Shown piece by piece: positions 12,146 through 31,092 of a stretch of 35,700 nucleotides of DNA (positions are counted from its first letter, which is position 1; every line of letters begins with the position of its first letter). The position numbers were made by a program, and so were the translations under genes. The stretch spans positions 1 to 35,700 of the IMG/VR virus record IMGVR_UViG_3300042691_014665; one strand, written 5' to 3'. This DNA is from a virus. The notes beneath the pieces are model-generated. The model made no database searches. It was not told the DNA's origin and was given only the letters and a program-made list of their open reading frames with translations.

Positions 12146-14008
12146 ATGGGAGCATTATTAGAATCAGGTCTTGTTGGTAACATCGGTTTAAAACACCTTA
12201 AAGTTATCAAAGAAGATACTATTAACAAATGGGACAAATTAGGGTTCCTAGAAGGTCTTAAAGGCCACCTAAAAGAAAATGTTGCGCAGTTGTATGAAAA
12301 CCAAGCGTCACATTTGATTAACGAAGCTACGTCTGACTCATCATCAGGTTCATTTGAAACTGTTGTATTCCCAATCGTTAGACGTGTTTTCTCTAAATTG
12401 TTAGCAAACGAAATCGTATCAGTTCAGGCGATGAACTTACCAATCGGTAAATTGTTCTATTTCGTTCCTAAAATTCAGGGATATTCAGGTGGTACTGTAA
12501 CCGACGGTTTAGGTATTACATCAGGAGATCACTACGCACCTGTAGGTGGTCCAGGAAACTATCCTGGTGACCCTAACGCAGGTTATGCGACAGGTAACGG
12601 TTCTTACAACTCAACTTACCAAAAAAATCTTTACGATTTATTCTATGAAGGTACTGAACCAGGTTTGAATCCAGCGGGTATTTTCGACTACTCAAAAGGT
12701 CGTTTCGTAACATTAACAGCGTCTACACCAACAGTTGCTTGGTCAAACGGAGCGTTAATCGCATCTGCTTACACATCAGGTGAATTCAGAAAAATTATCG
12801 TAGCTCTTTCAGGTTTCTCAACCGCAGGTATCGGTAAATTAATCGGTCCTGATGGTCAAGAACAAGATACTGAATCTTTCTTGTCTAATTTGGTACTTTA
12901 CACCGATAACGCAACTGCAGCTACTCAGTTAGGTACTTCAACATTTACTCCACTTCTTTTCAGAGTTGTTACTCAGAAATATGGTCAAGCAATGTATGGT
13001 CCACAATACACATCAACACAAGCGGCGTTCGGAACGTCTTCAACAGGTGGTAACGGAGGTTACTTCGACAACGTATGTAGTCAAACTGGTTTCATCTACT
13101 TAGAGATCGACGCACAAGTACCTGTTTGTGTATCTTGCGGTCAATCAACACCTGATGGTTACTCAGGAGCAACTATTACATCCGCTGTATGGTCAGGAGC
13201 TTCTGCTAACACTAACATCAAAGCGGCTTGGAGACGTTACGAAGAACTTGAGTTCGAAGATAAAATTGGTGAGGTTTCTTTCGACCTTGAGTCAGTTACA
13301 GTATCTGTAACAGAAAGAAAACTAAGAGCACAATGGTCACCTGAACTTGCTCAGGACGTTGCGGCTTTCCATAACATCGATGCTGAGGCTGAATTGACAG
13401 CTTTATTGTCAGAACAAGTTGCGGCAGAGATCGACCGTGAAATTTTACGTGACTTACGTAAAGGAGCGGCTTGGAATCTTCGTTGGGATTACAACGGATG
13501 GAAGAGACTGTCTTCAGGAACTACTCCATACACTCAAAAAGACTGGAACCAAACATTGATTACAACAATCAATCAGATTTCGGCTCAAATCCACAAGTCA
13601 ACTCTTCGTGGTGGGGCTAACTGGATTATTGTTTCATCTGAAATTTCAGCAATTTTTGATGACTTGGAATACTTCCACGTATCAAACGCTTCACCTGAAC
13701 AAGATCAGTTCAACATGGGTATTGAAAGAGTAGGTACTCTATCAGGACGTTACCAAGTATACCGTGATCCTTACTTCCCAGCAAACACTGTGTTGATTGG
13801 TCACAAAGGTACTTCGTTACTTGATACAGGTTACATCTACGCACCGTATGTACCACTTCAATTAACTCCAACAATGTACAATCCATTTAACTTTACACCA
13901 ATTAAGGGTATCATGACAAGATACGCGAAGAAAATGGTCAACAATCGCTTCTATGGACGCATTACTGTTGATGGTGTTCGTACATTTGACTTGAACGAAT
14001 TGAGATAA
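12146..14008 (+). CDS. Major capsid protein (gp23-like)
   Basis: This protein forms the head shell. Family evidence includes VRRVFSKLLANEIVSVQAMN and PIGKLFYFVPKIQG (about 75-110), matching the T4 gp23 region VRRAIPNLIAFDICGVQPMN. A later block at about 370-430 (FEDKIGEVSFDLESVTV, ELAQDVAAFHNIDAEAEL, VAAEIDREILRDL) also matches, and the end has RYAKKMVNNRFYGRI. The length of 620 exceeds T4 gp23 (521), with a Gly/Ser/Thr-rich insertion at about 130-330 that includes a CVSC pair near 330. The sequence around residues 51-66 (ENQASHLINEATSDSS) fits gp21 cleavage after Glu60, leaving a mature protein of about 560 residues. Codons are richer in G and C than in the glycan genes. A strong terminator follows. 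Confidence 0.96.
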   Translation: MGALLESGLVGNIGLKHLKVIKEDTINKWDKLGFLEGLKGHLKENVAQLYENQASHLINEATSDSSSGSFETVVFPIVRRVFSKLLANEIVSVQAMNLPIGKLFYFVPKIQGYSGGTVTDGLGITSGDHYAPVGGPGNYPGDPNAGYATGNGSYNSTYQKNLYDLFYEGTEPGLNPAGIFDYSKGRFVTLTASTPTVAWSNGALIASAYTSGEFRKIIVALSGFSTAGIGKLIGPDGQEQDTESFLSNLVLYTDNATAATQLGTSTFTPLLFRVVTQKYGQAMYGPQYTSTQAAFGTSSTGGNGGYFDNVCSQTGFIYLEIDAQVPVCVSCGQSTPDGYSGATITSAVWSGASANTNIKAAWRRYEELEFEDKIGEVSFDLESVTVSVTERKLRAQWSPELAQDVAAFHNIDAEAELTALLSEQVAAEIDREILRDLRKGAAWNLRWDYNGWKRLSSGTTPYTQKDWNQTLITTINQISAQIHKSTLRGGANWIIVSSEISAIFDDLEYFHVSNASPEQDQFNMGIERVGTLSGRYQVYRDPYFPANTVLIGHKGTSLLDTGYIYAPYVPLQLTPTMYNPFNFTPIKGIMTRYAKKMVNNRFYGRITVDGVRTFDLNELR

Positions 14009-14882: not shown

Positions 14883-15311
14883 ATGACAAATACTAATATA
14901 ACAAATGAGTGGGTTGAGATAACCCAAAATACTGATGTTGATATTTTAACTGAGGATTTAGCAGTTTGGTTCGGAACTAAGAAGAAACCGAAAGGATCTA
15001 AACAACCAAAAGGCCCTTGGGTTAATATTTGTAGGAAAAAAGAAGGTGGTGGACATCCTCCTTGTGGTAGACCCGAAGCGTCATCAAAAGGATATCCTAA
15101 ATGTAGGGCAGCAGGGGTCGCTTCTAAAATGACAGATTCTCAAAAAAGATCTGCCTGTCAACAAAAAAGAAAGGCCGAAAAATCAAATCCGAAAACGGGA
15201 ACTGGTAATAAACCAAAAATGGTTTCGTACAAACCAAAAAAAAAGACCTACAAAAATGAAGGTCTTGAAAAGATTATTAGAGACGTTTTAAGAGAGTTTA
15301 AAACTTTTTAA
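14883..15311 (+). CDS. Small basic Cys-containing protein, possible packaged protein
   Basis: This 142-residue protein has an acidic N-terminal 30 residues and a strongly basic remainder. The central part reads KKPKGSKQPKGPWVNICRK, then GGHPPCGRPEASSKGYPKCR and MTDSQKRSACQQKRKAEK. Cys50, His58, Cys61, Cys74 and Cys92 could form a zinc site. I recall a YPKC(R/V)...MT..QKRSA...KRKAE pattern from proteins of large phages and giant viruses, but no function. The C-terminal helix GLEKIIRDVLREFKTF resembles the N-terminal helix of the protein at 15776-16267 (LSRIIKKVLQES) and contains an LRE site. Packaging with DNA is a plausible role. It is transcribed alone, from the motif at 14851. Confidence 0.75.
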   Translation: MTNTNITNEWVEITQNTDVDILTEDLAVWFGTKKKPKGSKQPKGPWVNICRKKEGGGHPPCGRPEASSKGYPKCRAAGVASKMTDSQKRSACQQKRKAEKSNPKTGTGNKPKMVSYKPKKKTYKNEGLEKIIRDVLREFKTF

Positions 15312-15717
15312 GGATGTCATTTAAAGAATGGCTAATTTGTGAGTGAATACTCACTTCATATTGCCTCCTACGACTTTCTATTTGATGATTAAATAAGTAG
15401 ATGGTTCTCTCCCATGTTCTTGGGTCTAAAACAATAGCATAATGGTAAACGTGATTGGTCACAAAGGCTTGTTGGTTTTGTAACGTTAGATAAATTCCCA
15501 ATCTCTCATTTTTGATAATTCTCTTTTGCGAAAGAGGTGCAAAGATAACTTCGGAGTCCTTTTGTTTTAAAAGTTTCCTACAGATATGAAAACAAACATT
15601 TTGATAGACCTGAGTTTCAGGGTCCAATCTATGGTCTAATGGTCTTTTCTTTAACCATTTGTAGTAATGAATACGTAACCTCGATGATTTGTGCTTGATA
15701 AATTGTAGTGGGGTCAT
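15298..15717 (-). CDS. Basic protein of unknown function with host-type promoter
   Basis: This 139-residue, Arg/Lys/His-rich protein has no recognised family. It starts MTPLQFIKHKSSRLRIHYYK, then RPLDHRLDPETQVYQN. The body alternates short strands and helices, with IYLTLQNQQAFVTNHVYHYA and a C-terminal RRRQYEVSIHSQISHSLNDI. No membrane or signal segment is visible. It is convergent with the gene at 14883, with which it shares its last 14 bases. Unlike its late neighbours, it is preceded by a good match to the Bacteroidota housekeeping promoter, and no ATATTTAT copy. It may therefore be expressed early or independently, for example as a host-takeover or accessory gene. That role is inference from the promoter only. 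Confidence 0.7.
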   Translation of the reverse strand: MTPLQFIKHKSSRLRIHYYKWLKKRPLDHRLDPETQVYQNVCFHICRKLLKQKDSEVIFAPLSQKRIIKNERLGIYLTLQNQQAFVTNHVYHYAIVLDPRTWERTIYLFNHQIESRRRQYEVSIHSQISHSLNDILKKF

Positions 15718-15736
15718 ATCTTTAGTTTTGTGAATA

Positions 15737-15767
15737 CAAAGATATGGAAATTTTTTTATTTAACAAT
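15737..15767 (-). promoter_or_regulatory. Putative Bacteroidota-type host promoter
   Basis: On the minus strand, TATCTTTG (15744 to 15737) matches the -7 consensus TAnnTTTG. It is preceded by ATTG (15767 to 15764) with a 19-base spacer, which fits the known TTG-N(17-23)-TAnnTTTG form. The ATG at 15717 lies 19 bases downstream. Confidence 0.6.
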
Positions 15768-15775
15768 TTGTAAAA

Positions 15776-16267
15776 TTATTTTTTAGTCCATTTACCCCCT
15801 TTACTTTTGTATCTCTTCGCGGCGGCACCATTACAATAAGCACTAGGACATACTTTATATCTTGATCTAGCCCATGCTAACGATTGTTGCCATAATTGTG
15901 GATTTGTTGGTGTGTTTTTTTTCTTCTTTTCAGTTATTTCAGAGGATTCTTCCATCACCCCCACAAAAGACATATCCTCAATATCTTGTTGACCATCACC
16001 TTTTATTTCATTCATTAAGAAATCAAAAACTTGGTCCATGTTGTTTTTCGCCTCGGCGATGTGATCTTGTGCCCAATCATGACCATTATCTAGTATCTGT
16101 TCTAACATTTGTGGGTCTTGTTCTAATAACATATCACATTGTCTTCTAATTTGTTCTAAGTTTGAGAAGAACATATATCTATCTGTATTACCTTCGTTTG
16201 ATTCTTGTAATACTTTCTTAATTATTCTACTTAAATCGTTTTCTGATAATCTAATCACTTTTTTCAT
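15776..16267 (-). CDS. Candidate packaged protein with N-terminal targeting helix
   Basis: This 163-residue protein begins MKKVIRLSENDLSRIIKKVL, then QES. I recall this helix, in the general form IRLTExDLxRIIKRVLxE, at the start of many unrelated environmental phage proteins. It ends in LQE, matching the (L/I)xE site of gp21-type proteases, so it may be a cleavable capsid-targeting signal like those of T4 internal proteins. The middle is acidic and helical. The C-terminus is basic and holds YKVCPSAYCNGAAAKRYKSK, a PSAYxNGxAAKxYK motif that I also recall from phage proteins of unknown function. It starts in the ATGA overlap with the large structural gene upstream, so it is co-translated with late genes. 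No enzyme activity is visible. Confidence 0.75.
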   Translation of the reverse strand: MKKVIRLSENDLSRIIKKVLQESNEGNTDRYMFFSNLEQIRRQCDMLLEQDPQMLEQILDNGHDWAQDHIAEAKNNMDQVFDFLMNEIKGDGQQDIEDMSFVGVMEESSEITEKKKKNTPTNPQLWQQSLAWARSRYKVCPSAYCNGAAAKRYKSKGGKWTKK

Positions 16268-17739
16268 TTTTTATTAACTATTTGAAATTTTATTTGTCTT
16301 TTATATGTACTAATTTCACCGTCGATACTTACCTTAATATCTATAAAATATTCATTCGGTATTTTATCACGAGTATCAAATATAAAGTAGTATTCGTTTG
16401 GTGTTTTATTAATTTGTGTCCAATCCTGAACTTGAACTTCTGTTTGACCCTCTTTTACATAAACTCTGTAATAAGCCTTTATTTTATTCAATGGTTGTTT
16501 TGAGGTGTATTCTTTTTTGATTATAACACCAACTTTTCTGATATCCGTGTTAAGAATTTTTTCATCTTGTTTAATACCATAATAATCAAATCCATAAACT
16601 GATGGGTCATTTGTTGATGTACCAATCGAAATTGCCGACGAATAAGGTCTAACGACTAATTCATTTTCAATATTAGGTAATGTAACTCCATTCAAAGTTA
16701 TTCCACTCCAAGTGTCCGTAAACGTACAAGGTGTTTTATATCCTAATAGTGCCGGTATTGTTACCTCATAAACCCCTTTGGTTCTTCTACATGTTGATAA
16801 TGACGTTAAACCTGATATTGGGTCACCATTACTATCTGAAATGGTAACATATGGGTTTGAATCCAAATTAACAGGATTTCCGTCTTCATATAGATACAAA
16901 TATAACTTATTTGACTTACCTAATGAAAACAAGTCTCTGTCGTCTTGAATTAAATCATTGTATGTTGTTTGTAAATATGGTTCATAAAATGTTTGGGTAT
17001 GTCGGGTAAAAAAGGCGACAGAATAATATTCGCTAGTTGCTGTATACGTTTCAATGTTGGGCTTATATGCGATTCCCCATCCTGTAACACCTGTAATAGT
17101 TCCATTTAATATCCCATTAATTTCTTCGGTCATATCAAAAGATATATTTTCGTTACCAAATTCAAAATGTTGTTCATCTATAATTGTAAGTGCTGAGTAA
17201 TTAAGACCTGTTAATCCTGTTAATGAGTTTAAGTTATCATAAATACCAGGATTAGACCAATCAAAAGTCAATTTTCTTTCAAACCAATTTGACGGATTAA
17301 TTGAATAGTTTTTTTCATCTCCAACACCTAAACCTAAATCATATTCTTTTCCGATACCTTCATCCCAAGTTTGTTGAGTTCCTGTGGTCCCTGATGATAA
17401 TGGTATTCTAAATAAAATTAGATCAAACGATGTTGCACGATTAACCGAAGTCCCAAAACGTTGTTCATTTAATAATGATTTTTCAAACGTTGTTGTGTTT
17501 GTCATTATTAAGGTATGAGTCATTGAACTTGAACATCCAGTTTGGATTATACCATCATTTATTTTTTCGGTTAGTAGGTCCAAATCAATGTCAAAAATAA
17601 ACCTTGAATATGTGTATTTTGGATCTAATGAATTTCTTAGACCGAATACTAACTCAGCGACAGGTTCTTGTCCTGTATTCTGATATGAGTTTAAAAAAAT
17701 GGTATTGTTTTTACTAAAATATGAATTATTTACAGACAT
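16264..17739 (-). CDS. Large beta-rich virion structural protein, unknown
   Basis: This 491-residue protein lacks enzyme motifs and is rich in Thr, Asn, Gly, Tyr and Ser, as is typical of tail or neck surface proteins. The N-terminal two thirds contain repeated beta-strand patterns such as NWFERKLTFDWSNPGIYDN and TSEYYSVAFFTRHTQTFYEPYL. The middle (about 275-310) has YLYLYEDGNPVNLDSNPYVT, which looks like an Ig-like domain. The last 110 residues alternate strands and charged turns (VGVIIKKEYTSKQPLNKIKA). A late-type motif precedes it, and the next gene starts within its stop. Position beside a gp5/OB-like baseplate protein suggests a tail, baseplate or neck part. I cannot name the T4 counterpart. 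Confidence 0.7.
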   Translation of the reverse strand: MSVNNSYFSKNNTIFLNSYQNTGQEPVAELVFGLRNSLDPKYTYSRFIFDIDLDLLTEKINDGIIQTGCSSSMTHTLIMTNTTTFEKSLLNEQRFGTSVNRATSFDLILFRIPLSSGTTGTQQTWDEGIGKEYDLGLGVGDEKNYSINPSNWFERKLTFDWSNPGIYDNLNSLTGLTGLNYSALTIIDEQHFEFGNENISFDMTEEINGILNGTITGVTGWGIAYKPNIETYTATSEYYSVAFFTRHTQTFYEPYLQTTYNDLIQDDRDLFSLGKSNKLYLYLYEDGNPVNLDSNPYVTISDSNGDPISGLTSLSTCRRTKGVYEVTIPALLGYKTPCTFTDTWSGITLNGVTLPNIENELVVRPYSSAISIGTSTNDPSVYGFDYYGIKQDEKILNTDIRKVGVIIKKEYTSKQPLNKIKAYYRVYVKEGQTEVQVQDWTQINKTPNEYYFIFDTRDKIPNEYFIDIKVSIDGEISTYKRQIKFQIVNKK

Positions 17740-17776: not shown

Positions 17777-19366
17777 TTAGTTAATCCTAATATTTTGATT
17801 AAGTATTGTATTTGGTGCGTCCAAAAGTTTTTGTAAAATATCAGCAGATTTTGTTCCATCTTGACCAACGGGTACTGGTGGTAATCCGTGATAAGGATGA
17901 ACGTGAGATAATAAAAACTTAACAATTAAATTCATTAAATCCAAAGTTTTTTCACCCCTCATCAATGGTTCCGTTTTTGACTCAATCTCATTGTATTTGT
18001 CTTGTGATATACCATAGATAGTATCCCTTAGATTGATTTTGTTAACACCAATACTGGAATCGTGTGAGACAAGATATACTTTTTGAGCTCCCATAACACC
18101 ATACGTAATGGGTTCACTTGTAACTTGTGGTTCTTGATAACTTGTTTTTTTTATCTTTAAAATAGGTCCTGTAAGATTTTTTGCGGTAACAACTCCGAAT
18201 CCAAATGAATTTGAACCGTCATTTATATTAACACCCTGATATAAAGTGTATATGTTATTAGATTCAAATGGGCCACCTTGGGCAGAAACCATTTTATTAT
18301 AAGTCGCTGGTGATGGTCTATAAACAAATGGAAATTGTTTACCTTCCTCAGAAGTAAACGTATTTGGATTGTGATTTTCCACCACAATTTTGTCATTATT
18401 TAAACCTCGGATGAAATTGTTAACTAAATCAATAACCTCCTGTAACGTCTTATTATTAAATTCATAACTAATCGGTAACTGACTACCTTTTAAAGATTCA
18501 ACATCAGTATTTAATTTAAAAGTATCGTAGTTTAACACAGGGTTTGGTCTTGTATTAAACTTATATAAATTAATATATCCCCTAAAATTATTCATTTCGT
18601 TTTCGGGATTATATAAATGATACTCAACTAAATACTTAATTTGTTTAACGTCAATAAAAAATGTATTCTGATTAAGAGTTCCACCAAATATTTTTTTGGT
18701 ATTAAAACGTGTTAACTCAACAAACGCTCTTTTATCATTTGCCGTCGGTAAGTTAGTAGTTGGACCGACCAAATCATTTGTTTTACCTGCCCTTAATAAT
18801 ACCGTATCTTCTTTTAGTATTAAGTCGGCGGATCCTCTACCTAATAAACTATTATCATCAGGTTCAGGAAAGACACCGAAAGTATCTCTTGGTATGTCAC
18901 CATTAACTTCTTTTAGGTTTTTTTGTTGTTTGTAATTATCACCCGATATCATATTTGTCTTTGATGCGGTTGAATTTTCATAAACAACTGAAAGAGGTGT
19001 TGACGGAGATACTGGTATATAGAACCTATTTCTATCAGATAAGAAATTAGTTTGACTTGACGGGTTTTGAGTATATGAATAAATAATATTAACTAACTCA
19101 CCCTTCTTAGGAGTTAAATTTAATGTGAACGGTAATAATGGTATAATTACAAAAGGATCGTCTTTGGTCCATTTGCAAATGTTCTTAATACCAGTTTCAA
19201 TATCAACTGTTGAGTTCTGAACATTACCAGATTTACATCTCTCAACAATAGTTTCTTTAATATCATTTAATTTGTAATTGTCTTCCAATACCCTTAACCT
19301 ACCCAATCTTAATGGGTCGTCAGAGTCTAAAACAGTTCCTTGATGTATTAATTTATAATTTGCCAT
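17777..19366 (-). CDS. Baseplate hub-like protein with OB-fold (gp5-type)
   Basis: The N-terminus reads HQGTVLDSDDPLRLGRLRVL (about 8-27) and later DPFVIIPLLPFTLNLTPKKG followed by ELVNIIY (about 70-96). This is the usual pattern of the gp5/VgrG-like OB-fold, in which a variable-length loop separates a (D)P.(G)RVRV strand from a P..GE.V strand. The rest is beta-rich, and the C-terminal LLSHVHPYHGLPPVPVGQDG is of a kind I recall from baseplate spike proteins. No lysozyme domain is present here, so any cell-wall cutting would come from another protein, perhaps the one at 1-586. Neighbours are large structural proteins on the same strand. The T4 number is uncertain; a baseplate role is likely. 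Confidence 0.55.
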   Translation of the reverse strand: MANYKLIHQGTVLDSDDPLRLGRLRVLEDNYKLNDIKETIVERCKSGNVQNSTVDIETGIKNICKWTKDDPFVIIPLLPFTLNLTPKKGELVNIIYSYTQNPSSQTNFLSDRNRFYIPVSPSTPLSVVYENSTASKTNMISGDNYKQQKNLKEVNGDIPRDTFGVFPEPDDNSLLGRGSADLILKEDTVLLRAGKTNDLVGPTTNLPTANDKRAFVELTRFNTKKIFGGTLNQNTFFIDVKQIKYLVEYHLYNPENEMNNFRGYINLYKFNTRPNPVLNYDTFKLNTDVESLKGSQLPISYEFNNKTLQEVIDLVNNFIRGLNNDKIVVENHNPNTFTSEEGKQFPFVYRPSPATYNKMVSAQGGPFESNNIYTLYQGVNINDGSNSFGFGVVTAKNLTGPILKIKKTSYQEPQVTSEPITYGVMGAQKVYLVSHDSSIGVNKINLRDTIYGISQDKYNEIESKTEPLMRGEKTLDLMNLIVKFLLSHVHPYHGLPPVPVGQDGTKSADILQKLLDAPNTILNQNIRIN

Positions 19367-19553
19367 TATTTCTTTCGTTGTACTCCTTTAACAATTTATC
19401 ATAAGATTTTTCAACCGTTTCTAAATAGAATGTTAATTTAATAATGGTATCTTTTGTTTTATCAAACTCATTACTAAGAGCGTCCATGGCTAAAACCAAA
19501 TCTTTATTCGGTCTATCTTTATATTCTGAAATAATATTTTTAATCTCTTCCAT
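19353..19553 (-). CDS. Small coiled-coil protein
   Basis: The ATG at 19553 (MEEIKNIISEYKDRPNKDLV) is preferred over an upstream GTG that would overlap the preceding gene by about 50 bases and add an untypical hydrophobic start. The 66-residue product is one long amphipathic helix, with heptad-like spacing in FDKTKDTIIKLTFYLETVEK. It overlaps the baseplate gene downstream by 14 bases and follows the 630-residue gene by one base, so it is translated within the structural operon. It could be a tail or baseplate assembly factor. No family is recognised. Confidence 0.7.
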   Translation of the reverse strand: MEEIKNIISEYKDRPNKDLVLAMDALSNEFDKTKDTIIKLTFYLETVEKSYDKLLKEYNERNNGKL

Positions 19554-19554
19554 T

Positions 19555-21447
19555 TTAAACAAATTTACCTGATATAGTAATAGGACTAGTTGCGGCCCCA
19601 CCAATTACAGGTATTGGTAGAACAAATGTTTCGGTCTTTGCATTTTCCCATAATTCTTTTCCTTGACCTTTTAAAGATGCGTATTCCCCAATTAAACCTA
19701 AATTCGGACTACCATCAGGTAATGGTCCTGTTGGTAGACCTAACTTTTGCATGTCATTAATTACGTTAATGAAAGAACGCTCAACTGAATATCCTGGTAA
19801 TAAATTTGAGGCTAACAATAAAGGTGTTGGTACGATATTTCTACCAATACCAGGTAGTCTTAATAAGGCCAATATTTGATCTAAAATATTTTTACATTGC
19901 CTCCAATCTTGAATTATTTTAATAACCTGTATTAACAATGCGACTAAGTTTAGGATTATTGCATATTTCTTATTTACCGTCTCTTTTGCTAAGTCTGAAC
20001 TAATACTTCTAATTAATGTAACAATATCTTTTTTAATTATCTTAAATAATTCCTTAATAAATAACCCACCAATTTTTGACGCTAAATTTACAAAAAAACT
20101 TTTATATTTTTTAGTAAAATCCGTCATTGACTCAATATCTATGTTTTGAACGGTTTGAGTTCCCGCTTTTAACATAGTGAAAATCGGTAAGAAAATCTTA
20201 GGACTTAATAATGATGTAATTAAAGAAAACGGTAATTTTTTTATAAATGAAAAATCAAAACTCAATTGAAAAGAAGGGTTTAACGATATCCCACCATTTT
20301 GTGTGAACGTGTTTGTAACAGAATCTATACCCTCAATTAAATCATCGTCATTATTTTCATCAACAAAATTCAACTTATCGATAGATTGTATGATTTCAAA
20401 CGAATTGACCGGAAATTTAACGTTGTCACAATCCTCAAATTCCACTGTTCTATTTTGTATATTATATACTTCTTGATCAATATTTAATAAATCAATTTCA
20501 TTAAATTCAAAAAAATCATCATCTAAATTATCTAATTCCCCTGTTTTAGCCACACCACTTACATCTATTTCATTTCTTGTGTCAAAACATAAACCGAGTA
20601 TTCTAGCAACAATACGTTCAAATTTTGTTTGATCTTTAACTTGATTTACCCCCAAATCTAATTCAGCCGAAATTGCACCCGTCAAAGAATTCAATAATTC
20701 TGAAATTATTAAATTAAATTCAACAAATGACATTCTTTGGTAATAATCTTTTAAGAAATCTACTATTTTATTAGCACCAGTAATTCTATTGTATAATGTT
20801 ATTTTAAAAAAGTCACCAGGTTGCCCTAAGTTATCTGACTGTTCATATGAAATATCAAATAAATCTTGACCCGAAGCTCCTTTAAAAGTGTAAGGTATTC
20901 CTTCTTCCGATATCCTTAAAAATAATTGTCTATTCATTGGATATTTAATATCCGTAGTATTTAAATTAACATTTTTTTCATACTTAGTTTTACCCACATC
21001 AGAATCGGGAGAAACCTTTAACAGTTGTTTAAAATCTACGTTTTTTAACTTAATATATATTACTTGATTTCCGTCGTAAGTTTGTTGTTGAGAACAACCT
21101 AATAATTTAACAATTTCGTCTTGTGTAATTTGTTCAATTTCAGGTTTTATCTTTTTAATGGTTTTTACAAATGTTCTTTTTAAGAACTTAGTACTGTCAC
21201 TACCATTTCCTCTATTTAAGGATATTAATTTAATTAATTGTTGAAATTGACTCTCAACTTCTTTTTGAAGTCTATTTTTTTGTTCTTCTATTGAAGACAG
21301 TGTATTTGCAATGTTTTTATCTGCCGGTTCGTCAGAATTATTGGCACCTGAAGTTAATGACCTAACAGAGCCTTTGATTTCTCTAAAGGTTTTAAGACTA
21401 TTGATTTTACTTTGAACTTCTTTATAACCCGTGTTTAAATCCGACAT
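19555..21447 (-). CDS. Large structural protein with hydrophobic helices, probably baseplate/tail
   Basis: This 630-residue protein is unrecognised. It starts with a helical, coiled-coil-like region (about 1-115). A mixed alpha/beta part follows, including LLGCSQQQTYDGNQVIYIKL and FFKITLYNRITGANKIVDFL. An acidic segment at about 290-385 comes next, then a strongly hydrophobic helical region at about 390-520 (LPFSLITSLLSPKIFLPIFT; IILNLVALLIQVIKIIQ). The C-terminus is Gly/Pro-rich (LPTGPLPDGSPNLGLIGEYA; VIGGAATSPITISGKFV), as in baseplate proteins. The hydrophobic helices could span a membrane, or lie buried in a tail complex. A short tape-measure-like role is an alternative, though 630 residues would imply a short tail. 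Position beside the gp5/OB-like gene favours baseplate. Confidence 0.65.
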   Translation of the reverse strand: MSDLNTGYKEVQSKINSLKTFREIKGSVRSLTSGANNSDEPADKNIANTLSSIEEQKNRLQKEVESQFQQLIKLISLNRGNGSDSTKFLKRTFVKTIKKIKPEIEQITQDEIVKLLGCSQQQTYDGNQVIYIKLKNVDFKQLLKVSPDSDVGKTKYEKNVNLNTTDIKYPMNRQLFLRISEEGIPYTFKGASGQDLFDISYEQSDNLGQPGDFFKITLYNRITGANKIVDFLKDYYQRMSFVEFNLIISELLNSLTGAISAELDLGVNQVKDQTKFERIVARILGLCFDTRNEIDVSGVAKTGELDNLDDDFFEFNEIDLLNIDQEVYNIQNRTVEFEDCDNVKFPVNSFEIIQSIDKLNFVDENNDDDLIEGIDSVTNTFTQNGGISLNPSFQLSFDFSFIKKLPFSLITSLLSPKIFLPIFTMLKAGTQTVQNIDIESMTDFTKKYKSFFVNLASKIGGLFIKELFKIIKKDIVTLIRSISSDLAKETVNKKYAIILNLVALLIQVIKIIQDWRQCKNILDQILALLRLPGIGRNIVPTPLLLASNLLPGYSVERSFINVINDMQKLGLPTGPLPDGSPNLGLIGEYASLKGQGKELWENAKTETFVLPIPVIGGAATSPITISGKFV

Positions 21448-21814: not shown

Positions 21815-21826
21815 AATAAATATTAC
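21815..21826 (-). promoter_or_regulatory. Putative late promoter motif (minus strand)
   Basis: Read on the minus strand this is GTAATATTTATT, ending 3 bases before the ATG at 21811 and lying in the short gap after the sigma factor gene. If used as a -10 element the transcript would be leaderless, so it is weaker than the other copies. Confidence 0.35.
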
Positions 21827-22566
21827 TTAATTATGTTTTTAATCAATTCAAAATACGCTCGTTTATATTTTTTCATACTTGCACGTATTTCCTTAGTTGA
21901 TAAATTAGTCATCTCTCTTAATGATAATAATATTATATTTTTATTAAATTTATTATTATCGGTACTAATGAATATACTGTCGTAATTAACGAATAATTCA
22001 TATAGTGATTCACCTAATTTTCTCTCATTATCAGATAAATTTTCATCATCTAAAATTTCATATAAAATAGTTAAAAACCCATTAATAATGTCTTCAGTTT
22101 CTACCGTATCAGAATCCATATAATAAATAAGATCTTCCCTACCTTCGTTTTCTAAATCGGAAGATATGTCTTCATAGGATATTTTCCTATTTGTATCTTT
22201 CTGATCTTTAATTATTTGACCCATCAAATAATTTTTACAGATAGTTCCAAAATAAGAATAAGCCTTCTTCTCTTTGGAAGGCTTAAACTTATCAATTTTA
22301 GTCATTAAAAATGAGTGGGTGTCGGTATGAATTTCTTCAAAATCCATATCTTTTCTATATAATTTGTATCGTCTAATAATTGACGATATCATTTTGTCTA
22401 AAGGTTTCCTTAATGATTGATTATAGATTCTATTTTTTTCATCAAATGTAGTTGCCGTTAAATACATTCTAACAGCGAACTCTTCCCTTTCATCAAAATA
22501 ATTATCAGATTTTGGTTTTCTCCCTTTCTTTTTTAATTCTCCATTTGTGTCTCCACTTAATGTCAT
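21823..22566 (-). CDS. Late-transcription sigma factor (gp55-like)
   Basis: This protein redirects host RNA polymerase to late phage promoters. The diagnostic part is a sigma region 2-like block at about 55-130: a helical LDKMISSIIRRYKLYRKDMD, then HTDTHSFLMTKIDKFKPSKE followed by AYSYFGTICKNYLMGQIIKD. It has the spacing of the F.P.K...AY.YF..I..N....I segment in gp55-type factors. The C-terminus (about 210-245) reads LREMTNLSTKEIRASMKKYK, which looks like a helix-turn-helix of region 4. T4 gp55 lacks one and relies on a clamp-binding tail instead. The length of 247 exceeds T4 gp55 (185). The start overlaps the stop of the upstream glycosyltransferase by one base, so it is made as part of the glycan operon. 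Confidence 0.75.
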   Translation of the reverse strand: MTLSGDTNGELKKKGRKPKSDNYFDEREEFAVRMYLTATTFDEKNRIYNQSLRKPLDKMISSIIRRYKLYRKDMDFEEIHTDTHSFLMTKIDKFKPSKEKKAYSYFGTICKNYLMGQIIKDQKDTNRKISYEDISSDLENEGREDLIYYMDSDTVETEDIINGFLTILYEILDDENLSDNERKLGESLYELFVNYDSIFISTDNNKFNKNIILLSLREMTNLSTKEIRASMKKYKRAYFELIKNIIK

Positions 22567-25368: not shown

Positions 25369-26093
25369 TCTTCGTATCTTTTTAAAAGTTTACTAATTAA
25401 TGGATTTCTCACAACATCTTTATCTGAAAATTCAAACACTCCGACATCATCAACTTGTTTAAATCGTTGCAATGCGTCCCATAATCCAGATTGTTTTTTG
25501 TCCTTATATCTATCGGTTTGTTCCAAGTCTCCTGATATGAAAAATTTGGAATTATAACCGATTCTTGTTAACAACAATTTCATCTGTTTTGGGGTTGAGT
25601 TTTGGGCTTCCTCAAAAATCAAAATTGTGTTATCGATGTTCATACCTCTCATGTACGCCAAGGCCATCACCTCAATAATTTCCGCCTCTTTTAATTTTTC
25701 TCGGGCTTCTTTTCCGATAATTTTATTTAAAAGATAATAAGATGGGAAAATATAAGGATCCAATTTCTCTTCCATATCACCAGGTAATGAACCTAATTTC
25801 TCTTCCGCTTCAACCGCAGGGCGAACAATAACCAATTTTTCATACGAATTGGTTGGGTCCAATAACAAATCAACCGCCGCTTTCATGGAAATATAACTTT
25901 TACCAACACCTGCTGGTCCTGAACACAGGACTATCTGATTATTAGTTAATAATTCATAATATGTCTTTTGACTTTCGGTTAGAAATTTATTTCTAATTTT
26001 TTTACTAACCAAAGAATTAATGTATTCTTTTTTTGTTAGTTTTCTGTCAACCTGTTCAGGTCGTTGAGTACTCTGTTTTTTTCTTTGAGTCAT
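25365..26093 (-). CDS. phoH: PhoH-like P-loop ATPase
   Basis: Walker A is GPAGVGKS at 59-66 and Walker B ILIFEEAQ at about 157-164. The surrounding RPAVEAEEKLGSLPGDMEEK, MALAYMRGMN and RIGYNSKFFISGDLEQTD segments are the standard PhoH signatures. PhoH is common in marine and T4-like phages. Its cell function is unclear, with RNA metabolism or phosphate stress proposed. The length of 242 is typical of the phage form. The likely start at 26093 gives a 38-base overlap with the epimerase gene, and no later Met is available before the P-loop, so the overlap is probably real. It interrupts the glycan genes but is not itself a sugar enzyme. Confidence 0.93.
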   Translation of the reverse strand: MTQRKKQSTQRPEQVDRKLTKKEYINSLVSKKIRNKFLTESQKTYYELLTNNQIVLCSGPAGVGKSYISMKAAVDLLLDPTNSYEKLVIVRPAVEAEEKLGSLPGDMEEKLDPYIFPSYYLLNKIIGKEAREKLKEAEIIEVMALAYMRGMNIDNTILIFEEAQNSTPKQMKLLLTRIGYNSKFFISGDLEQTDRYKDKKQSGLWDALQRFKQVDDVGVFEFSDKDVVRNPLISKLLKRYEE

Positions 26094-27123
26094 TTTTATT
26101 TACATTACTATTAATCCATTGATAAGTTTTTTCTAAACCATAAATCAATGGTTGAGAAACCGACCAACCAATTTTTTCACTATATAACTTATTGTCAGAA
26201 TTTCTACCTTTAACTCCAACAGGACATTTAAATCCGTATTTTTGTTTAAATTCGTCACCTGATATATTACTTATTTTAATATTTTTTCCTGAAATATCAA
26301 TAGCCATTTGTGCCAATTGATTAATAGTAACCATTTCTTCGGAACCTATATTTACAGGTCCTTTAAAATCACTATTCATTAATCTTAATACCGCCTCAAC
26401 ACATTCGTCAATATATAAAAATGACCTTGTTTGTAATCCGTCTCCCCAAACTTCTATTTCACCACCATCAGGAGTTTCAGAAACTTTTCTACACATAGCG
26501 GCAGGAGCTTTTTCTTTACCTCCCATCCAAGTACCATAAGGTCCAAAAATGTTATGGAATCTAGCAACCCTAACATCTAATCCATAGTTTCTATTAAATG
26601 CGAAATACAGTCTCTCACTAAAAAGTTTTTCCCAACCATATTCTGAGTCAGGATTTGCTGGGTATGCGGATGATTCCTCGCAATTTGGATTGTTTGGGTC
26701 TAATTGATTATGCTCGGGGTACATACATGCCGATGATGAATAAAATAATTTTTTGACCCCGAATATAGATGCATAATAGGATACATTAAGATTAATTAAT
26801 GCAGAATTGTGCATTACATTAGCGTCGTTATCACCTGTAAAAATATAACCAGCACCGCCCATGTCGGCCGCTAATTGATATACTTCATCAAAACTATTTT
26901 TTTTATCGTCTATTGAAAATTGATTTGGTGAGAACATTATTTTACTAACAAATTTCGGATCTCTCAAATCCCCCTGAATAAATTCGGAGCAAAACTCATC
27001 GATATTAAAATATTCGTGTTGTTTAATATCTACAACTCTAACGAAATTTCCCTCGTTAAATAATCTTTTGGCTAAGTGTCCACCTATGAACCCTCCACCA
27101 CCTAATATTAGTATATTTTTCAT
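26056..27123 (-). CDS. GDP-mannose 3,5-epimerase-like SDR
   Basis: This enzyme should convert GDP-D-mannose to GDP-L-galactose (and GDP-L-gulose). The NAD site is GGGGFIGGH at 8-16. The active site follows plant GDP-mannose 3,5-epimerase closely: SSSACMYPE (Cys133), EYGWEKL (Tyr162, Lys166), RFHNIFGPYGTWMGGKEKAPA (Lys205) and WGDGLQTRSFLYIDECVEAV. In the Arabidopsis enzyme the catalytic residues are Cys145, Tyr174 and Lys217. The spacings here (29 and 72 residues) are identical. The length of 355 is near that of plant GME (377). The C-terminal tail NKNDSKKKTEYSTT overlaps the start of PhoH. Related bacterial heptose 3,5-epimerases are an alternative substrate class. Confidence 0.85.
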   Translation of the reverse strand: MKNILILGGGGFIGGHLAKRLFNEGNFVRVVDIKQHEYFNIDEFCSEFIQGDLRDPKFVSKIMFSPNQFSIDDKKNSFDEVYQLAADMGGAGYIFTGDNDANVMHNSALINLNVSYYASIFGVKKLFYSSSACMYPEHNQLDPNNPNCEESSAYPANPDSEYGWEKLFSERLYFAFNRNYGLDVRVARFHNIFGPYGTWMGGKEKAPAAMCRKVSETPDGGEIEVWGDGLQTRSFLYIDECVEAVLRLMNSDFKGPVNIGSEEMVTINQLAQMAIDISGKNIKISNISGDEFKQKYGFKCPVGVKGRNSDNKLYSEKIGWSVSQPLIYGLEKTYQWINSNVNKNDSKKKTEYSTT

Positions 27124-28202
27124 ATTTTTTTAATTTCGTTTAAAACCATATCCTCAATTAAACTATTAAGTGATATTGTGATACCGGGCCAATCAGGATA
27201 ATCATTTTTAAATTTATTAAAATTCGTAACATAGTAAATGTGGTCACCAACTCTATTCTCATTTAAAATTGAGTATTTATCCCAAATCTTCCAATTAGGT
27301 ATTTTTTTAGAACAAATATTATTAACCAAATCTATTGATTCTAAAATAGAAATTGAATTATCGATACCTCCACCAGCATTGTACACTTCTCCTTTTTTTG
27401 GATTTAAGTGATAATACCAAAACATATTGACTAAATCATATGAATGTATATTATCTCTAACTTGCTTACCTTTATAACCAAATATTTTATAGTCTTTGTA
27501 TTGAACAATACACTTTATGAGATACGAAAGAAATCCGTGTAATTCCGCACCGGCGTGATTAGGTCCGGTTAAACACCCTCCTCGGAAACAAACTGTATTC
27601 ATACCGAAATACTTACCGTATTCTTGTACTAATATGTCAGCAGATAATTTAGATGAACCAAATAATGAATGTAAACAATTATCAATTGATAATGATTCAT
27701 CAATAGAATTTTCAAATTTATCATCGTTTAAAATATACCTCTTATTATCTTCCCTGATTTTAAGTTTATTTGGGTTATCCCCATAAACTTTATTGGTTGA
27801 TGTAAAAATAAAAGAAGCGTCTTTTGAATTTTGTCTAGTTAATTCTAAAAGATTTAAAGTTCCGATAGCATTAATTGAGAAATCAGTCATTGGTTCTTTA
27901 GATGCCCAATCATGAGACGGTTGAGCCGCAGTATGAATAATAACCTTTATACTCTCACCATATTTTTTATATATTTTTTGTAATGCCTCAAAATCTCTAA
28001 TATCAACGTTATAAAAATTAAAAAAATTACTATAATCATTTATTAATTTTTCTGTGTTTTTTTCGGTTGATGATTCCGGACCAAAAAAATAAGACCTCAT
28101 ATGGTTATCAATTCCAACCACTTGATACCCTTTGTCTATGAAAAATTTAACTGATTCGTACCCGATTAAACCCGAGCATCCCGTAATCAATGCTATATTC
28201 AT
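27120..28202 (-). CDS. NAD-dependent sugar epimerase (CDP-paratose 2-epimerase-like SDR)
   Basis: This extended SDR of 360 residues has the dinucleotide site TGCSGLIGYE (about 7-16), FTSTNKVYGD (about 133-142), a catalytic-site region CLHSLFGSSKLSAD (about 176-189) and GKQVRDNIHSYD. The layout matches CDP-paratose/tyvelose epimerases and related sugar SDRs (STNKVYGD, HSPYGCSK, GKQVRDVLH). The usual catalytic Tyr of YxxxK is Phe181 here, while Lys185 is kept. I recall relatives with HSLFGASK, so this may be a family feature rather than damage. The substrate is unknown. It overlaps the GDP-mannose epimerase gene by 4 bases, which suggests linked roles in making a rare nucleotide sugar. Confidence 0.8.
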   Translation of the reverse strand: MNIALITGCSGLIGYESVKFFIDKGYQVVGIDNHMRSYFFGPESSTEKNTEKLINDYSNFFNFYNVDIRDFEALQKIYKKYGESIKVIIHTAAQPSHDWASKEPMTDFSINAIGTLNLLELTRQNSKDASFIFTSTNKVYGDNPNKLKIREDNKRYILNDDKFENSIDESLSIDNCLHSLFGSSKLSADILVQEYGKYFGMNTVCFRGGCLTGPNHAGAELHGFLSYLIKCIVQYKDYKIFGYKGKQVRDNIHSYDLVNMFWYYHLNPKKGEVYNAGGGIDNSISILESIDLVNNICSKKIPNWKIWDKYSILNENRVGDHIYYVTNFNKFKNDYPDWPGITISLNSLIEDMVLNEIKKI

Positions 28203-28208
28203 AATATT

Positions 28209-28814
28209 TTAATTTTTAACGTATAGATAATCGATAAAGACATTAGTGTGGTATTGATAACCCCTCTCGTTGAAAAACTCATTAAACTTCTCCTCAAAAA
28301 AATTATTTTCAATACATATAACTTTTATATCATAATCATTAAAATTTATTCTTTCTAAGATTTGTAATTCTGACCCCTCAGTATCAATTGATAGAAAATC
28401 AATTTTTTTTCTACCGACCACAGATTCAAATTTTTTGGCGTCAATTTTAATTATTTCAGAATTTCCTCCATGTGTTCTTAATTCATTTAATATCCGATTA
28501 TAGTGTCTTGAGTCATATGACTCGTAAATACCGCTCAACATTTCGGTGTAACCCGATAAAGAAAGAAAATTAACCTCAGTGTCTTCGCTCCATAATGCAC
28601 AATTAACTTTTTGACATTTTCTATTTTTAATTAATTCTTTAAACACATTAGGGTGCGGTTCAATACAGATACCGTCCCACCCAAGGTCCTCTAATAATTT
28701 AGTATTACTCAATGAAATACCATTATGTGCACCAATATCAACAAAAAAACCATCAGTTTTAAAGTTAAATAACTCTTGTATTTTTTTTTCTAATTCGGGA
28801 TTGGTATATGACAT
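28209..28814 (-). CDS. FkbM-family methyltransferase
   Basis: This 201-residue enzyme is a SAM-dependent methyltransferase, probably acting on a hydroxyl of a sugar. Motif I is GFFVDIGAHNGISLSNT (about 19-35), followed by WDGICIEPHPNVFKEL and the conserved FkbM segment DFLSIDTEGSELQILERI (about 139-156). The length is short for the family but all main motifs are present. It sits 6 bases upstream of the epimerase gene and 5 bases downstream of the GT10-like gene. This is one of three FkbM-type genes in the block, each different in sequence. The acceptor is not indicated; O-methylation of the glycan made here is the simplest guess. Confidence 0.88.
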   Translation of the reverse strand: MSYTNPELEKKIQELFNFKTDGFFVDIGAHNGISLSNTKLLEDLGWDGICIEPHPNVFKELIKNRKCQKVNCALWSEDTEVNFLSLSGYTEMLSGIYESYDSRHYNRILNELRTHGGNSEIIKIDAKKFESVVGRKKIDFLSIDTEGSELQILERINFNDYDIKVICIENNFFEEKFNEFFNERGYQYHTNVFIDYLYVKN

Positions 28815-28819
28815 ATTAA

Positions 28820-29656
28820 TTATTTTTTTGTTATTTTATCTAAAACTTGATTAACTCTATCGGCATGAAATGCGTACTTTTTATTTGCTATATCATAATT
28901 TTCCAAAATAGCATCAATTCTATTATGATAATCTTTTTCGGTTAAGTTATTGAGTATATTATCTAATTCCTCTTTAGTTTCAAAAAATATAATACCATTA
29001 GTATTAAAATACTCTCCAATGTTAGGGCAACCCCAATATATTGGTATAGTATACGACATAAAACAATCTATAATTTTTTCACTAATATAGTTTATATTTT
29101 TAGTGTTTTCTATTGCAATATGAAACATAGTATCCTCAAATAATTTATATTTCTCCTCCATAGGGATTGAGGTTGGGAATATTAAATTGTAATTTCTTGG
29201 TTTAGAAATAATATCTTTAGATAGGTGTCTGAGCGAATGTCCGGGAAGGAAGATTTTACCACTCATAACAAAACTTAATTGAAATTTTTTATTAGTATTA
29301 AAAATATTAAAATATTCTGTTCTATGGTTAGCCCTAAATTTATCTTCTCTGGTTAGAATCCAACATGAAGCGTATAAAAATAATTCTGAATTTTCGCAGG
29401 ACGATAATACTTCAGGATATGAACTTAAAATTATATCAAAAAAATTTTTATTCCTAATAACTTCGTTAGAAATATTATTCAATTCTTTAGGTTCCATACC
29501 TTGTATTAGAACTAGTTTGTCAAAGTTTTCCCTATCGATATGTATTTGTTTATTAAAATAAAGATAATTTGGGTCTATTATTATTTTTATTTTATCATTA
29601 GTGTTACATTTAAAAAAATCTCCAGGGCATCCAAAAGGTGAGTACGTTGATATCAT
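28820..29656 (-). CDS. GT10-like fucosyltransferase
   Basis: This 278-residue enzyme has the C-terminal GT10 signature MFHIAIENTKNINYISEKII followed by CFMSYTIPIYWGCPNIGEYF (about 177-217). It parallels FxxxxEN...DYxTEK...A...G.VPVV.G of alpha-1,3/1,4-fucosyltransferases, which use GDP-L-fucose. Upstream, SLRHLSKDIISKPRNYNLIF includes part of the donor-binding region. No membrane anchor is present, as is usual for bacterial GT10 enzymes. GDP-L-fucose synthesis genes are not in the window, but a GDP-mannose 3,5-epimerase is. GDP-L-galactose is a close analogue, so the donor could be that sugar. The stop of the upstream GT11-like gene overlaps its ATG by 4 bases. Confidence 0.65.
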   Translation of the reverse strand: MISTYSPFGCPGDFFKCNTNDKIKIIIDPNYLYFNKQIHIDRENFDKLVLIQGMEPKELNNISNEVIRNKNFFDIILSSYPEVLSSCENSELFLYASCWILTREDKFRANHRTEYFNIFNTNKKFQLSFVMSGKIFLPGHSLRHLSKDIISKPRNYNLIFPTSIPMEEKYKLFEDTMFHIAIENTKNINYISEKIIDCFMSYTIPIYWGCPNIGEYFNTNGIIFFETKEELDNILNNLTEKDYHNRIDAILENYDIANKKYAFHADRVNQVLDKITKK

Positions 29657-30372
29657 ATTAATTGAGTATTAATCCAATTACTTTTCGGTTTATGCCAAAA
29701 AGGTAAATAATAAACTATGCCGTCAGATAATAATCCCGCACAATAACTAAATGAACCTTTAGACATGACTAATATATCAGATAATACCATATCTGTAAAT
29801 GTTTTTTCTATACTTTCATTTAAATGAAACTCAATATCATCACCTATAAAATTTTTAAAATTTTCCTTATCTCCTTGTGAGTATATTTTATATTTTTTAA
29901 TATCGGGATATTGTTTTCTAATTAAGTCAATTACTTTTATGAAATATTCGTCTTGTGTGTACCCATAATCCCCTATATCGTGACTGTTAGGTCTTCTGAT
30001 ATGAATTGCCACATATTTCTCATCAAACCTTCTCACTTTATTTTTTAAAAATAAATTTTTTATTTTCTTAAATGATTGTAGGGATAATGAATAATCTAAG
30101 TTATTTTCTATTTTATTATAAATAAAACCTAAATCAAAATCTTTTATATCACCTATATCAATTGAGTCTATTGAATTAAATTCATCTCTAATATTTATTA
30201 AATTTTCTTTATCCTTAATAAAGGTAGGATTTGAATCATAATTGTGTTCAATACTGGTAAATGGTCTGTACACGAATTCAATTTTTTCCAATTCTGCAAA
30301 TAATATTGTAAAAATTATTGTTTGGTATTGCGCCCCAAACCCATCATTTCTTAATTTATTAGTTATATACAT
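29653..30372 (-). CDS. GT11-like fucosyltransferase
   Basis: The N-terminus NDGFGAQYQTIIFTILFAEL resembles the GGLGNQ(M/L)FQYA start of alpha-1,2-fucosyltransferases. Further on, KYVAIHIRRPNSHD (about 119-132) matches the HxRRxD donor motif, although Asn-Ser replaces the usual Asp-Tyr. The C-terminal SDILVMSKGSFSYCAGLLSD (about 198-217) fits the SxxSxSxxAAxL motif of the family. The length of 239 is shorter than the typical 280-300. With the GT10-like gene and the GDP-mannose 3,5-epimerase it forms a GDP-linked deoxy/galacto sugar module. The donor is predicted from family only. It lies 3 bases after a FkbM gene and overlaps the GT10 gene by 4 bases, so it is co-translated. Confidence 0.65.
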   Translation of the reverse strand: MYITNKLRNDGFGAQYQTIIFTILFAELEKIEFVYRPFTSIEHNYDSNPTFIKDKENLINIRDEFNSIDSIDIGDIKDFDLGFIYNKIENNLDYSLSLQSFKKIKNLFLKNKVRRFDEKYVAIHIRRPNSHDIGDYGYTQDEYFIKVIDLIRKQYPDIKKYKIYSQGDKENFKNFIGDDIEFHLNESIEKTFTDMVLSDILVMSKGSFSYCAGLLSDGIVYYLPFWHKPKSNWINTQLI

Positions 30373-30375
30373 ACT

Positions 30376-31092
30376 CTATTCTCCTAATATTGAATATTTA
30401 ATGTTATTTTTAATGTTAATAAATTTTTTATTGAAAAAAGTTGCATTAATCCCCCAACTCTCACAATAAAAACCAGCGTTTTCCATGTAATTTTTAAGTT
30501 CCATTGGAGTCTCGTTATTAAGGTATTGCCCGTTAGTCGTAGTTTCAACATCAAGATATACAATTCGTTCAGACAAGTAATTACCCATACCTTTAATAAT
30601 ATTAAAATCCGATGATTGAGCATCAATCTTAATTTGTTCTATATACGGAATAGTTTCCCAAGGAAAGTAATCAAAAAACGATTCTAATGTTATAACAGGA
30701 ATTTCAATAATCTCTTTAACTGTTATTCTACTATCTATCGGTGTGAACAAACTTGATGTTCCACCATCAATGTTAGTACAGTAAAATTTTTCGCTTTCAG
30801 ATGTAAAATTTGACAGTGCGCAATTTAAATAAAAAAATGAATTATTAATTTTATTGGGGTTTATATGTATTGGCCATATTTTTTCACCGCCATGTAAATG
30901 TTTTATATTATATGTATTAGGTTCGAATGCGAATACACAAACTTCAGGGTCCTCATTAATCCAAACCTCAGAATTTGGAGCGGCAACTGAAGTACCGACA
31001 TCAATTTTAATTTTTTTTACCCAATTGGGGATAAAAATTTTATCATCTTTTAAAATTGGAGATAGTACTTTTCTTATTAGGTCATTTTTCAT
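30376..31092 (-). CDS. FkbM-family methyltransferase
   Basis: This 238-residue protein shows the FkbM layout. Motif I is KIKIDVGTSVAAPNSEVWIN (about 27-46), then VCVFAFEPNTYNIKHL (about 51-66), and a later IKIDAQSSDFNIIKGMGNYL (about 153-172), which takes the place of the DxEGxE...GA segment. The GTS and QSS variants differ from the other two copies here. The C-terminal segment has a Cys/Trp-containing strand (ENAGFYCESWGINATFF) typical of the family. It overlaps the third FkbM gene by 11 bases. O-methylation of a glycan residue is the likely role; the acceptor is unknown. Confidence 0.8.
   Translation of the reverse strand: MKNDLIRKVLSPILKDDKIFIPNWVKKIKIDVGTSVAAPNSEVWINEDPEVCVFAFEPNTYNIKHLHGGEKIWPIHINPNKINNSFFYLNCALSNFTSESEKFYCTNIDGGTSSLFTPIDSRITVKEIIEIPVITLESFFDYFPWETIPYIEQIKIDAQSSDFNIIKGMGNYLSERIVYLDVETTTNGQYLNNETPMELKNYMENAGFYCESWGINATFFNKKFINIKNNIKYSILGE

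Follow-up and report, generated by a model that had tools for sequence, protein, structure and literature searches.

A conserved early-type gene with a predicted host-type promoter in the late block of a Far-T4-type phage, probably of Bacteroidota

Far-T4-type phages and Bacteroidota promoters

Far-T4 phages have been described from lake viromes, with Rhodothermus phage RM378 as an isolate (PMC4360716). That paper calls all host predictions for the lake phages spurious and inconsistent, states that transcription patterns might differ from those of T4, and does not contain the word “promoter.” A later in silico study predicted T4-like phages for marine Bacteroidetes (PMC7198788). For Bacteroidota themselves, PMC6847099 and PMC7366714 give a −33/−7 promoter pair consisting of TTTG and TANNTTTG (TAnnTTTG), with almost no G at either free position, a distance of 4 to 5 nt from the −7 box to the transcription start, and a −33 motif that is difficult to discern in Flavobacterium; for Flavobacterium johnsoniae, both the avoidance of G at the free positions and the weakness of the −33 motif are reported in PMC6847099.

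The DNA analyzed here, referred to as the window, is the whole 35,700-nucleotide stretch of IMG/VR record IMGVR_UViG_3300042691_014665. It is T4-type, encoding a Gp23 capsid protein, a gp20 portal, a gp21-type protease, a gp17-type terminase, and PhoH. The Far-T4 gene set (g23, g20, and g17 plus PhoH), which is common to the Lake Pavin contigs and RM378, is present in full, with Gp23, Portal_T4, Terminase_6N, and PhoH scoring above Pfam cutoffs. In a tblastn search against RM378 and other phages, the RM378 capsid protein matched that of the window at 35% over 55% of the query.

Among the late genes of the window lies a minus-strand gene, here called ORFX (Table 1). We consider it likely that a Far-T4-type phage of Bacteroidota here carries a conserved early gene, ORFX, which resides in the late block under a promoter of its own that is predicted to be read by the host polymerase. 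RM378 differs from the window phage in that a profile search found no ORFX there, nor was one found by profile in Microcystis phage Mel-JY01 or LR756508. T4 keeps early and middle genes near its late genes, for example, uvsY and uvsW near gene 23, and the ORFX case is alike in having an early or middle gene inside a structural block; no relation in sequence or fold is claimed. Our search, from which subscription journals were largely excluded, retrieved no literature on host-type promoters in this phage group. The kind of promoter is already known, but the embedded early-type unit and the ORFX family appear undescribed.

Table 1. Coordinates of ORFX, its predicted signals, and the other genes discussed, numbered from the first nucleotide of the window
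Feature	Position	Strand	Remarks
ORFX, 139-aa protein	15298..15717	-	Predicted 2 helices, five-strand beta meander, long C-terminal helix; basic N terminus
−7 box TATCTTTG, Bacteroidota-type (sigma-ABfr) promoter	15737..15744	-	Predicted start at ~15731-15732, from published 4-5 nt spacing
ATTG at −33 element position	15764..15767	-	19 nt 5' of −7 box
Predicted intrinsic terminator of ORFX	15236..15266	-	AAGACCT hairpin plus 7 T, within CDS of convergent gene
Convergent gene, 142 aa	14883..15311	+	ATATTTAT 23 nt 5' of ATG in window; 6/31 relatives have it
Upstream gene, 163 aa	15776..16267	-	Own promoter motif lacking in most relatives
Late gene	16264..17739	-	ATATTTAT 15 nt 5' of ATG; TATTTAT in 22/22 relatives; likely source of late read-through into ORFX
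Major capsid protein, Gp23 family	12146..14008	+	Synteny anchor
gp55-like phage sigma factor	21823..22566	-	Candidate reader of ATATTTAT promoters

The promoter box upstream of ORFX

Upstream of the ATG start codon of ORFX, 19 nt intervene before the box TATCTTTG, and the 70 nt 5' of the gene hold neither TATTTAT, the core of the late motif, nor ATATTTAT. The coordinates bear out the original prediction, which described a minus-strand gene with ATTG 19 nt 5' of TATCTTTG, lacking the late motif and convergent with a late gene; the 3' ends of ORFX and the convergent gene share 14 nt, and the latter carries ATATTTAT in the window. Of 40 window genes tested, 9 have TATTTAT within 70 nt of the start, and ORFX is the sole gene with a believable host-type box, an apparent box before gene 19353-19559 having been disregarded because the start of that gene was wrongly set.

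Counts within the window are close to expectation for the bare box: TATCTTTG occurs at 4 sites against 2.8 expected, and TAHHTTTG occurs 46 times against 44.6. The exact string ATTG-N19-TATCTTTG occurs once against 0.02 expected, a figure for a motif that was picked after being seen. Since the window alone leaves the bare box at chance level, relatives were examined, and it is the comparative evidence that carries the promoter claim.

The first scan gave five loci at 70 to 75% identity, in all of which the box is retained, and a second scan gave three more. A scan with the capsid protein then provided the best 80 of at least 578 loci, and a profile found ORFX homologues in 40 of those best 80, down to about 20% identity. 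From 51 hits we obtained 39 distinct proteins with upstream DNA, after dropping 12 (7 identical proteins, 1 duplicate record, and 4 cut at the 5' end). Of these 39 homologues, 35 have TANNTTTG no more than 70 nt from the start, a number that rises to 37 once two start codons are corrected; 300 dinucleotide shuffles of the 39 upstream regions averaged 2.5 and never exceeded 8. The exceptions are L103 and Flavobacterium phage immuto, where the gene is inside an operon. A second search, with a distant ORFX member as the query, returned 70 loci, 27 of which were used (36 had identical upstream DNA, 4 a protein already used, 2 no start, and 1 was cut) and which yielded 25 further nonredundant upstream regions once near-identical ones were removed. 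This set was gathered without the capsid gene, yet samples the same phage group; it has TANNTTTG in 22 of 25 (shuffle mean, 1.8; maximum, 6). Over both sets the box is absent in L103, L221, L265, and L268 besides immuto, and TATTTAT is found upstream in 0/39 and 0/25. The sequences are related, and these counts are not to be taken as independent events. Both sets nevertheless speak against chance, and on these two sets we reject the view that the conserved box is a chance string. The concern that such a match might be common by chance was thus borne out for the window and not for the homologues, where 37/39 compares with a shuffle maximum of 8.

The neighbors of ORFX present a different picture. 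In this comparison, ORFX has TANNTTTG in 36/37 loci and TATTTA in 0/37, whereas the core protein gene at 10648, in the same loci, has ATATTTAT in 55/56 and TANNTTTG in 0/56. TATTTAT precedes gene 16264 in 22/22 (TANNTTTG, 0/22) and the protease gene at 9504 in 43/44 (TANNTTTG, 1/44), and gene 14102 has ATATTTAT in 8/8. Other neighbors carry the late core less often and have no TANNTTTG, namely the capsid gene (TATTTAT, 1/64), the convergent gene 14883 (6/31), and genes 15776 (2/30) and 14603 (2/9); gene 14482, with TATTTAT in 2/40 and TANNTTTG in 5/40, is the only neighbor with more than one TANNTTTG. Five genes further downstream are represented by 1 to 4 rows each and are little informative.

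The late-promoter-like motif ATATTTAT was seen 4 to 27 nt 5' of the start codons of genes 8220, 10648, 14102, 14883, 16264, and 21449, and also in L109 and L111. It is close to the reverse complement of the T4 motif TATAAATA. In the immuto and Mel-JY01 pieces, ATATTTAT occurs in sense orientation at 5 and 4 genes and in antisense at 0 and 0, respectively; the reversed string is equally common.

The ORFX promoter resembles sigma-ABfr promoters in its −7 box TATCTTTG, which matches TANNTTTG and the refined form TAHHTTTG with T and C at the free positions, in a TTG 19 nt upstream, and in an AT-rich spacer. It differs from them in having ATTG for TTTG at −33 (that is, TTG and not TTTG), in lying on a phage between late units, and in being predicted from sequence. 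Among the 38 members examined, 37 bear the box, and TTG is located 19 nt 5' of it in 17 and 20 nt 5' of it in 10, with no TTG at either distance in the remaining 10. The TTG overlaps a TGTTAA-like (Cys-stop-like) stretch in 16 of the 37, and with those set aside, 11 of 21 have TTG at 19 to 20 nt; because the upstream gene ends at such a stretch in many relatives, part of the −33 conservation may be coding. Only 5/25 upstream regions of the second set have the bipartite form.

These gaps at −33 are what might be expected if the box only looked like the Bacteroidota −7 element and were in truth a middle promoter specific to the phage, or else an activator site, with the −7 box sufficing and ORFX being a middle gene transcribed by a modified polymerase. 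We regard this as improbable. In 27/37 members, the distance to TTG is precisely the 19 or 20 nt of the host geometry, and almost no member has G at either free position (G occurs in L036 and L227), as in Flavobacterium johnsoniae, where the −33 motif is also weak. The same bipartite motif moreover occurs in Cellulophaga phage phi17:2, an isolated phage with a known host, 5' of 6/167 genes, against 0, 0, and 0 in three controls.

A similar excess was found in a 261-kb relative (G001), where the bipartite motif precedes 14/353 genes against 2, 0, and 1 in three controls. TAHHTTTG alone is mildly enriched there over antisense (36 sense against 20 antisense, 3 reversed, and 17 complement), and the Escherichia coli sigma-70 −10 box TATAAT is not enriched (43 sense and 41 antisense). 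The motif was found 5' of 0/54 genes in 34 kb of Flavobacterium phage immuto and, in 12- to 26-kb pieces, of 0/18 in RM378, 0/18 in Mel-JY01, and 0/27 in LR756508. In G001, 26 other genes are listed behind a box; of the 10 that were scanned for families, five had no match and the others comprise an HNH endonuclease, a DUF932 protein, a DUF6576 match, a zinc-ribbon-like protein below the Pfam cutoff, and a PHROG of unknown function.

We therefore favor transcription by the host machinery. Host polymerase in its unmodified form, carrying the primary sigma factor, sigma-ABfr, would recognize TTG at −33 and, after 19 nt, TATCTTTG at −7, giving a transcript with a leader of 14 to 15 nt that starts at the position given in Table 1. 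The original prediction of a host-type promoter, and hence of early-type expression, is upheld at the level of motif statistics by the 261-kb relative and phi17:2. Its use of the promoter as support for a Bacteroidota host is likewise favored by phi17:2, which was isolated on Cellulophaga, and the conservation of a host-type promoter across most of the capsid-related phages examined points to Bacteroidota as the host. Mel-JY01, whose capsid protein is similar and which weakly matches the sigma factor of the window, is recorded on a cyanobacterium and calls for caution on this point.

Synteny and the transcription unit

Many of the 80 capsid-gene loci end before the ORFX slot, which leaves 37, those with at least 4 kb downstream, for judging presence; ORFX is found in 33 of them. 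The four without it are L039, L052, L057, and L107, and the record of L057 carries ORFX just outside the locus. All 40 hits in capsid loci are opposite in strand to the capsid gene and 0.7 to 5.8 kb away from it. Each of eight IMG/VR records searched whole has one ORFX match; in the whole-record search, one of nine matches (G008) shows one stop within the aligned stretch. For pairs whose synonymous sites are unsaturated, dN/dS is about 0.1. As to host chromosomes, no ORFX relative was found in GTDB contigs with two queries, whose patterns reach close relatives only.

The original prediction had suggested an accessory gene inserted between late units, and a recent insertion bringing its own constitutive promoter would explain why the promoter class of ORFX differs from that of its late neighbors. 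Insertion beside ORFX does occur: in L006 (L006:4450-4965) and L007 (L007:1953-2468), a gene that looks HNH-like by eye has entered directly 5' of ORFX, between it and its usual neighbor. For ORFX itself, we find this account very improbable. Its occurrence in 33 of the 37 informative loci, each time on the strand opposite the capsid gene, its single match per record, and its divergence in place to about 20% identity at a dN/dS of about 0.1 contradict an inserted accessory gene, and by these sequence measures, ORFX is a conserved resident under purifying selection. The −7 box is kept in both L006 and L007, yet no TTG is left at 19 to 20 nt in L006.

On the same strand, ORFX is preceded by two late-block genes, 16264-17739 and 15776-16267, the second of which ends 58 nt before it. 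No terminator was detected between 15776-16267 and ORFX in the window, which, together with the short gap, makes late read-through into ORFX likely there, besides early expression. The gene is therefore only in part the “lone” gene that had been proposed. Among the 38 members, a codirectional ORF ends within 250 nt 5' of ORFX in 31, and in 24 of these within 60 nt, so close that late read-through may supply much of the ORFX protein.

Terminator-like hairpins were found on both sides of the unit. In the window and in 4 of its 5 closest distinct relatives (not in L008), the ORFX stop codon is followed at a distance of 31 nt, inside the convergent gene, by a hairpin with a T run, whose stems vary between close relatives (AAGACCT/AGGTCTT and AATACTT/AAGTATT) but still pair. 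The ORFX transcript would end at this intrinsic terminator. A downstream terminator is not universal: a first scan found one in 9/38 members against 5/152 shuffles, and it was rejected as a general feature. In the larger set of 63 members, a terminator-like hairpin occurs 5' of the box in 16 (shuffles, 0/189) and 3' of ORFX in 16 (shuffles, 3/189), on both sides in 4 (L221, L243, L247, and L269), and on at least one side in 28. We give almost no weight to a last alternative, in which AT-rich DNA yields the promoter match by accident and ORFX is expressed like any other late gene, by read-through from 16264-17739, for even though TAHHTTTG is at chance level in the window and the upstream gene ends 58 nt before ORFX, the box is conserved in 37/39 and 22/25 homologues, and the terminator just upstream in 16/63 would hinder read-through.

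An early gene with a host-read promoter remains our preferred reading. With its own host-type promoter, ORFX could be made before late transcription; we propose that it is made once the DNA enters and, in the window, possibly again late by read-through. The surrounding late units carry ATATTTAT, probably read by the phage gp55-like sigma factor. Promoter activity, timing, and the assignment of a sigma factor to each motif are all inferred from sequence. A host-type promoter, a gp55-like sigma factor, and ATATTTAT together would make up a two-class transcription plan that is testable.

The late sigma candidate and the ORFX protein family

The protein encoded at 21823-22566 is likely a phage late sigma factor, judging mainly from its predicted structure. 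Of 229 candidate stretches in viral contigs, 222 encode a relative of it, and the best 80 of these 222 were kept. The model is of modest quality (pLDDT, 71.4; pTM, 0.45) and has a sigma region 2 fold, with T4 gp55 (7d7c_F) as the best VIA match (Z, 11.0; rmsd, 3.3; 107 aligned residues); the VIA rows listed are, by title, sigma factors or complexes holding one. The best Foldseek E value is only 6.2e-3, and by sequence all matches fall below cutoffs (TIGR02937, 16.9 bits against a cutoff of 42.9; gp55, E of 0.5; no Pfam or PHROG match). A phage late sigma would explain the two promoter classes, and this one probably reads ATATTTAT.

The ORFX protein of the window has no Pfam, PHROG, or NCBIfam match. 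Single members of the family give scattered weak matches, the best listed having E values of 0.00061 (PHROGs) and 0.0008 (Pfam), and none of the 25 families shown occurs in more than 4/38 members. Searches of the PDB by sequence reached E values of 0.031 with a small profile and 0.17 with a larger one. By fold, nothing in the PDB was found at an E value of ≤0.001 (best Foldseek E, 0.15; best VIA Z, 4.9, in tied rows); polo-box, SifA-SKIP, and similar folds, with VIA Z below 5, were treated as noise. The model itself, built from a 38-sequence alignment, has a mean pLDDT of 86.3 and a pTM of 0.67, with helices at residues 3-22, 33-51, 99-127, and 132-138 and strands at 56-60, 65-70, 75-80, 83-87, and 92-96. 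Family members are basic, with pI values of 9.1 to 10.1 and a median charge of +7 in the first 30 residues (38 members).

Among viral models, five matched at an E value of ≤0.001, namely two uncultured-phage proteins, a marine phage protein, immuto gp44, and R9ZWS4 of Cellulophaga phage phi17:2. The gp44 protein of Flavobacterium phage vB_FspM_immuto_2-6A (QQO91723.1) belongs to the same family (profile E, 3.2e-17 over positions 25-136 of 138; Foldseek E, 1.4e-7). Its gene (L010:7974-8318) differs in lying far from the capsid gene and without a TANNTTTG box of its own, in an operon that looks early by its annotated neighbors, which include thymidylate synthase and queuosine genes. R9ZWS4 (112 aa) has a similar predicted fold (Foldseek E, 2.3e-5; TM, 0.60/0.74) but is only 12% identical and was missed by the sequence profile; its gene was assigned by length and by eye, with gp151 likely and gp027 of equal length.

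The public label of gp44, ribonucleotide reductase beta subunit, looks wrong and is misleading; we correct it here. Ribonuc_red_sm is not among the Pfam families listed for six members including gp44, and among all 38 members it is matched by one, with an E value of only 0.0075. That family is a ferritin-like helical bundle, whereas the ORFX model is a five-strand meander plus helices, which the public model of gp44 matches.

What ORFX does can at present be guessed from its charge and position, which hint at a small basic host-takeover or regulatory protein whose positively charged N-terminal helix might bind nucleic acid or a host complex. As a conserved family that has no database entry and is set apart from its late neighbors by its promoter, it is a good candidate for a role in host takeover. 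We further speculate, though we think it doubtful, that ORFX is the first known member of a new family in Bacteroidota phages, small basic proteins expressed from a strict host promoter for early takeover of transcription, which would assist in replacing sigma-ABfr on the host RNA polymerase by the gp55-like sigma factor of the phage. If so, the importance of well-timed expression would account for its retention among the late genes behind a promoter of host type and, in 28/63 members, beside a terminator on one or both sides.

Beyond these genes, a minus-strand run of about 10 genes at 26056-35692, long for a phage, has the look of sugar-nucleotide and surface-glycan enzymes by eye, with apparent epimerases, a UDP-sugar dehydrogenase, FkbM-like methyltransferases, an aminotransferase, and a CapK-like ligase.
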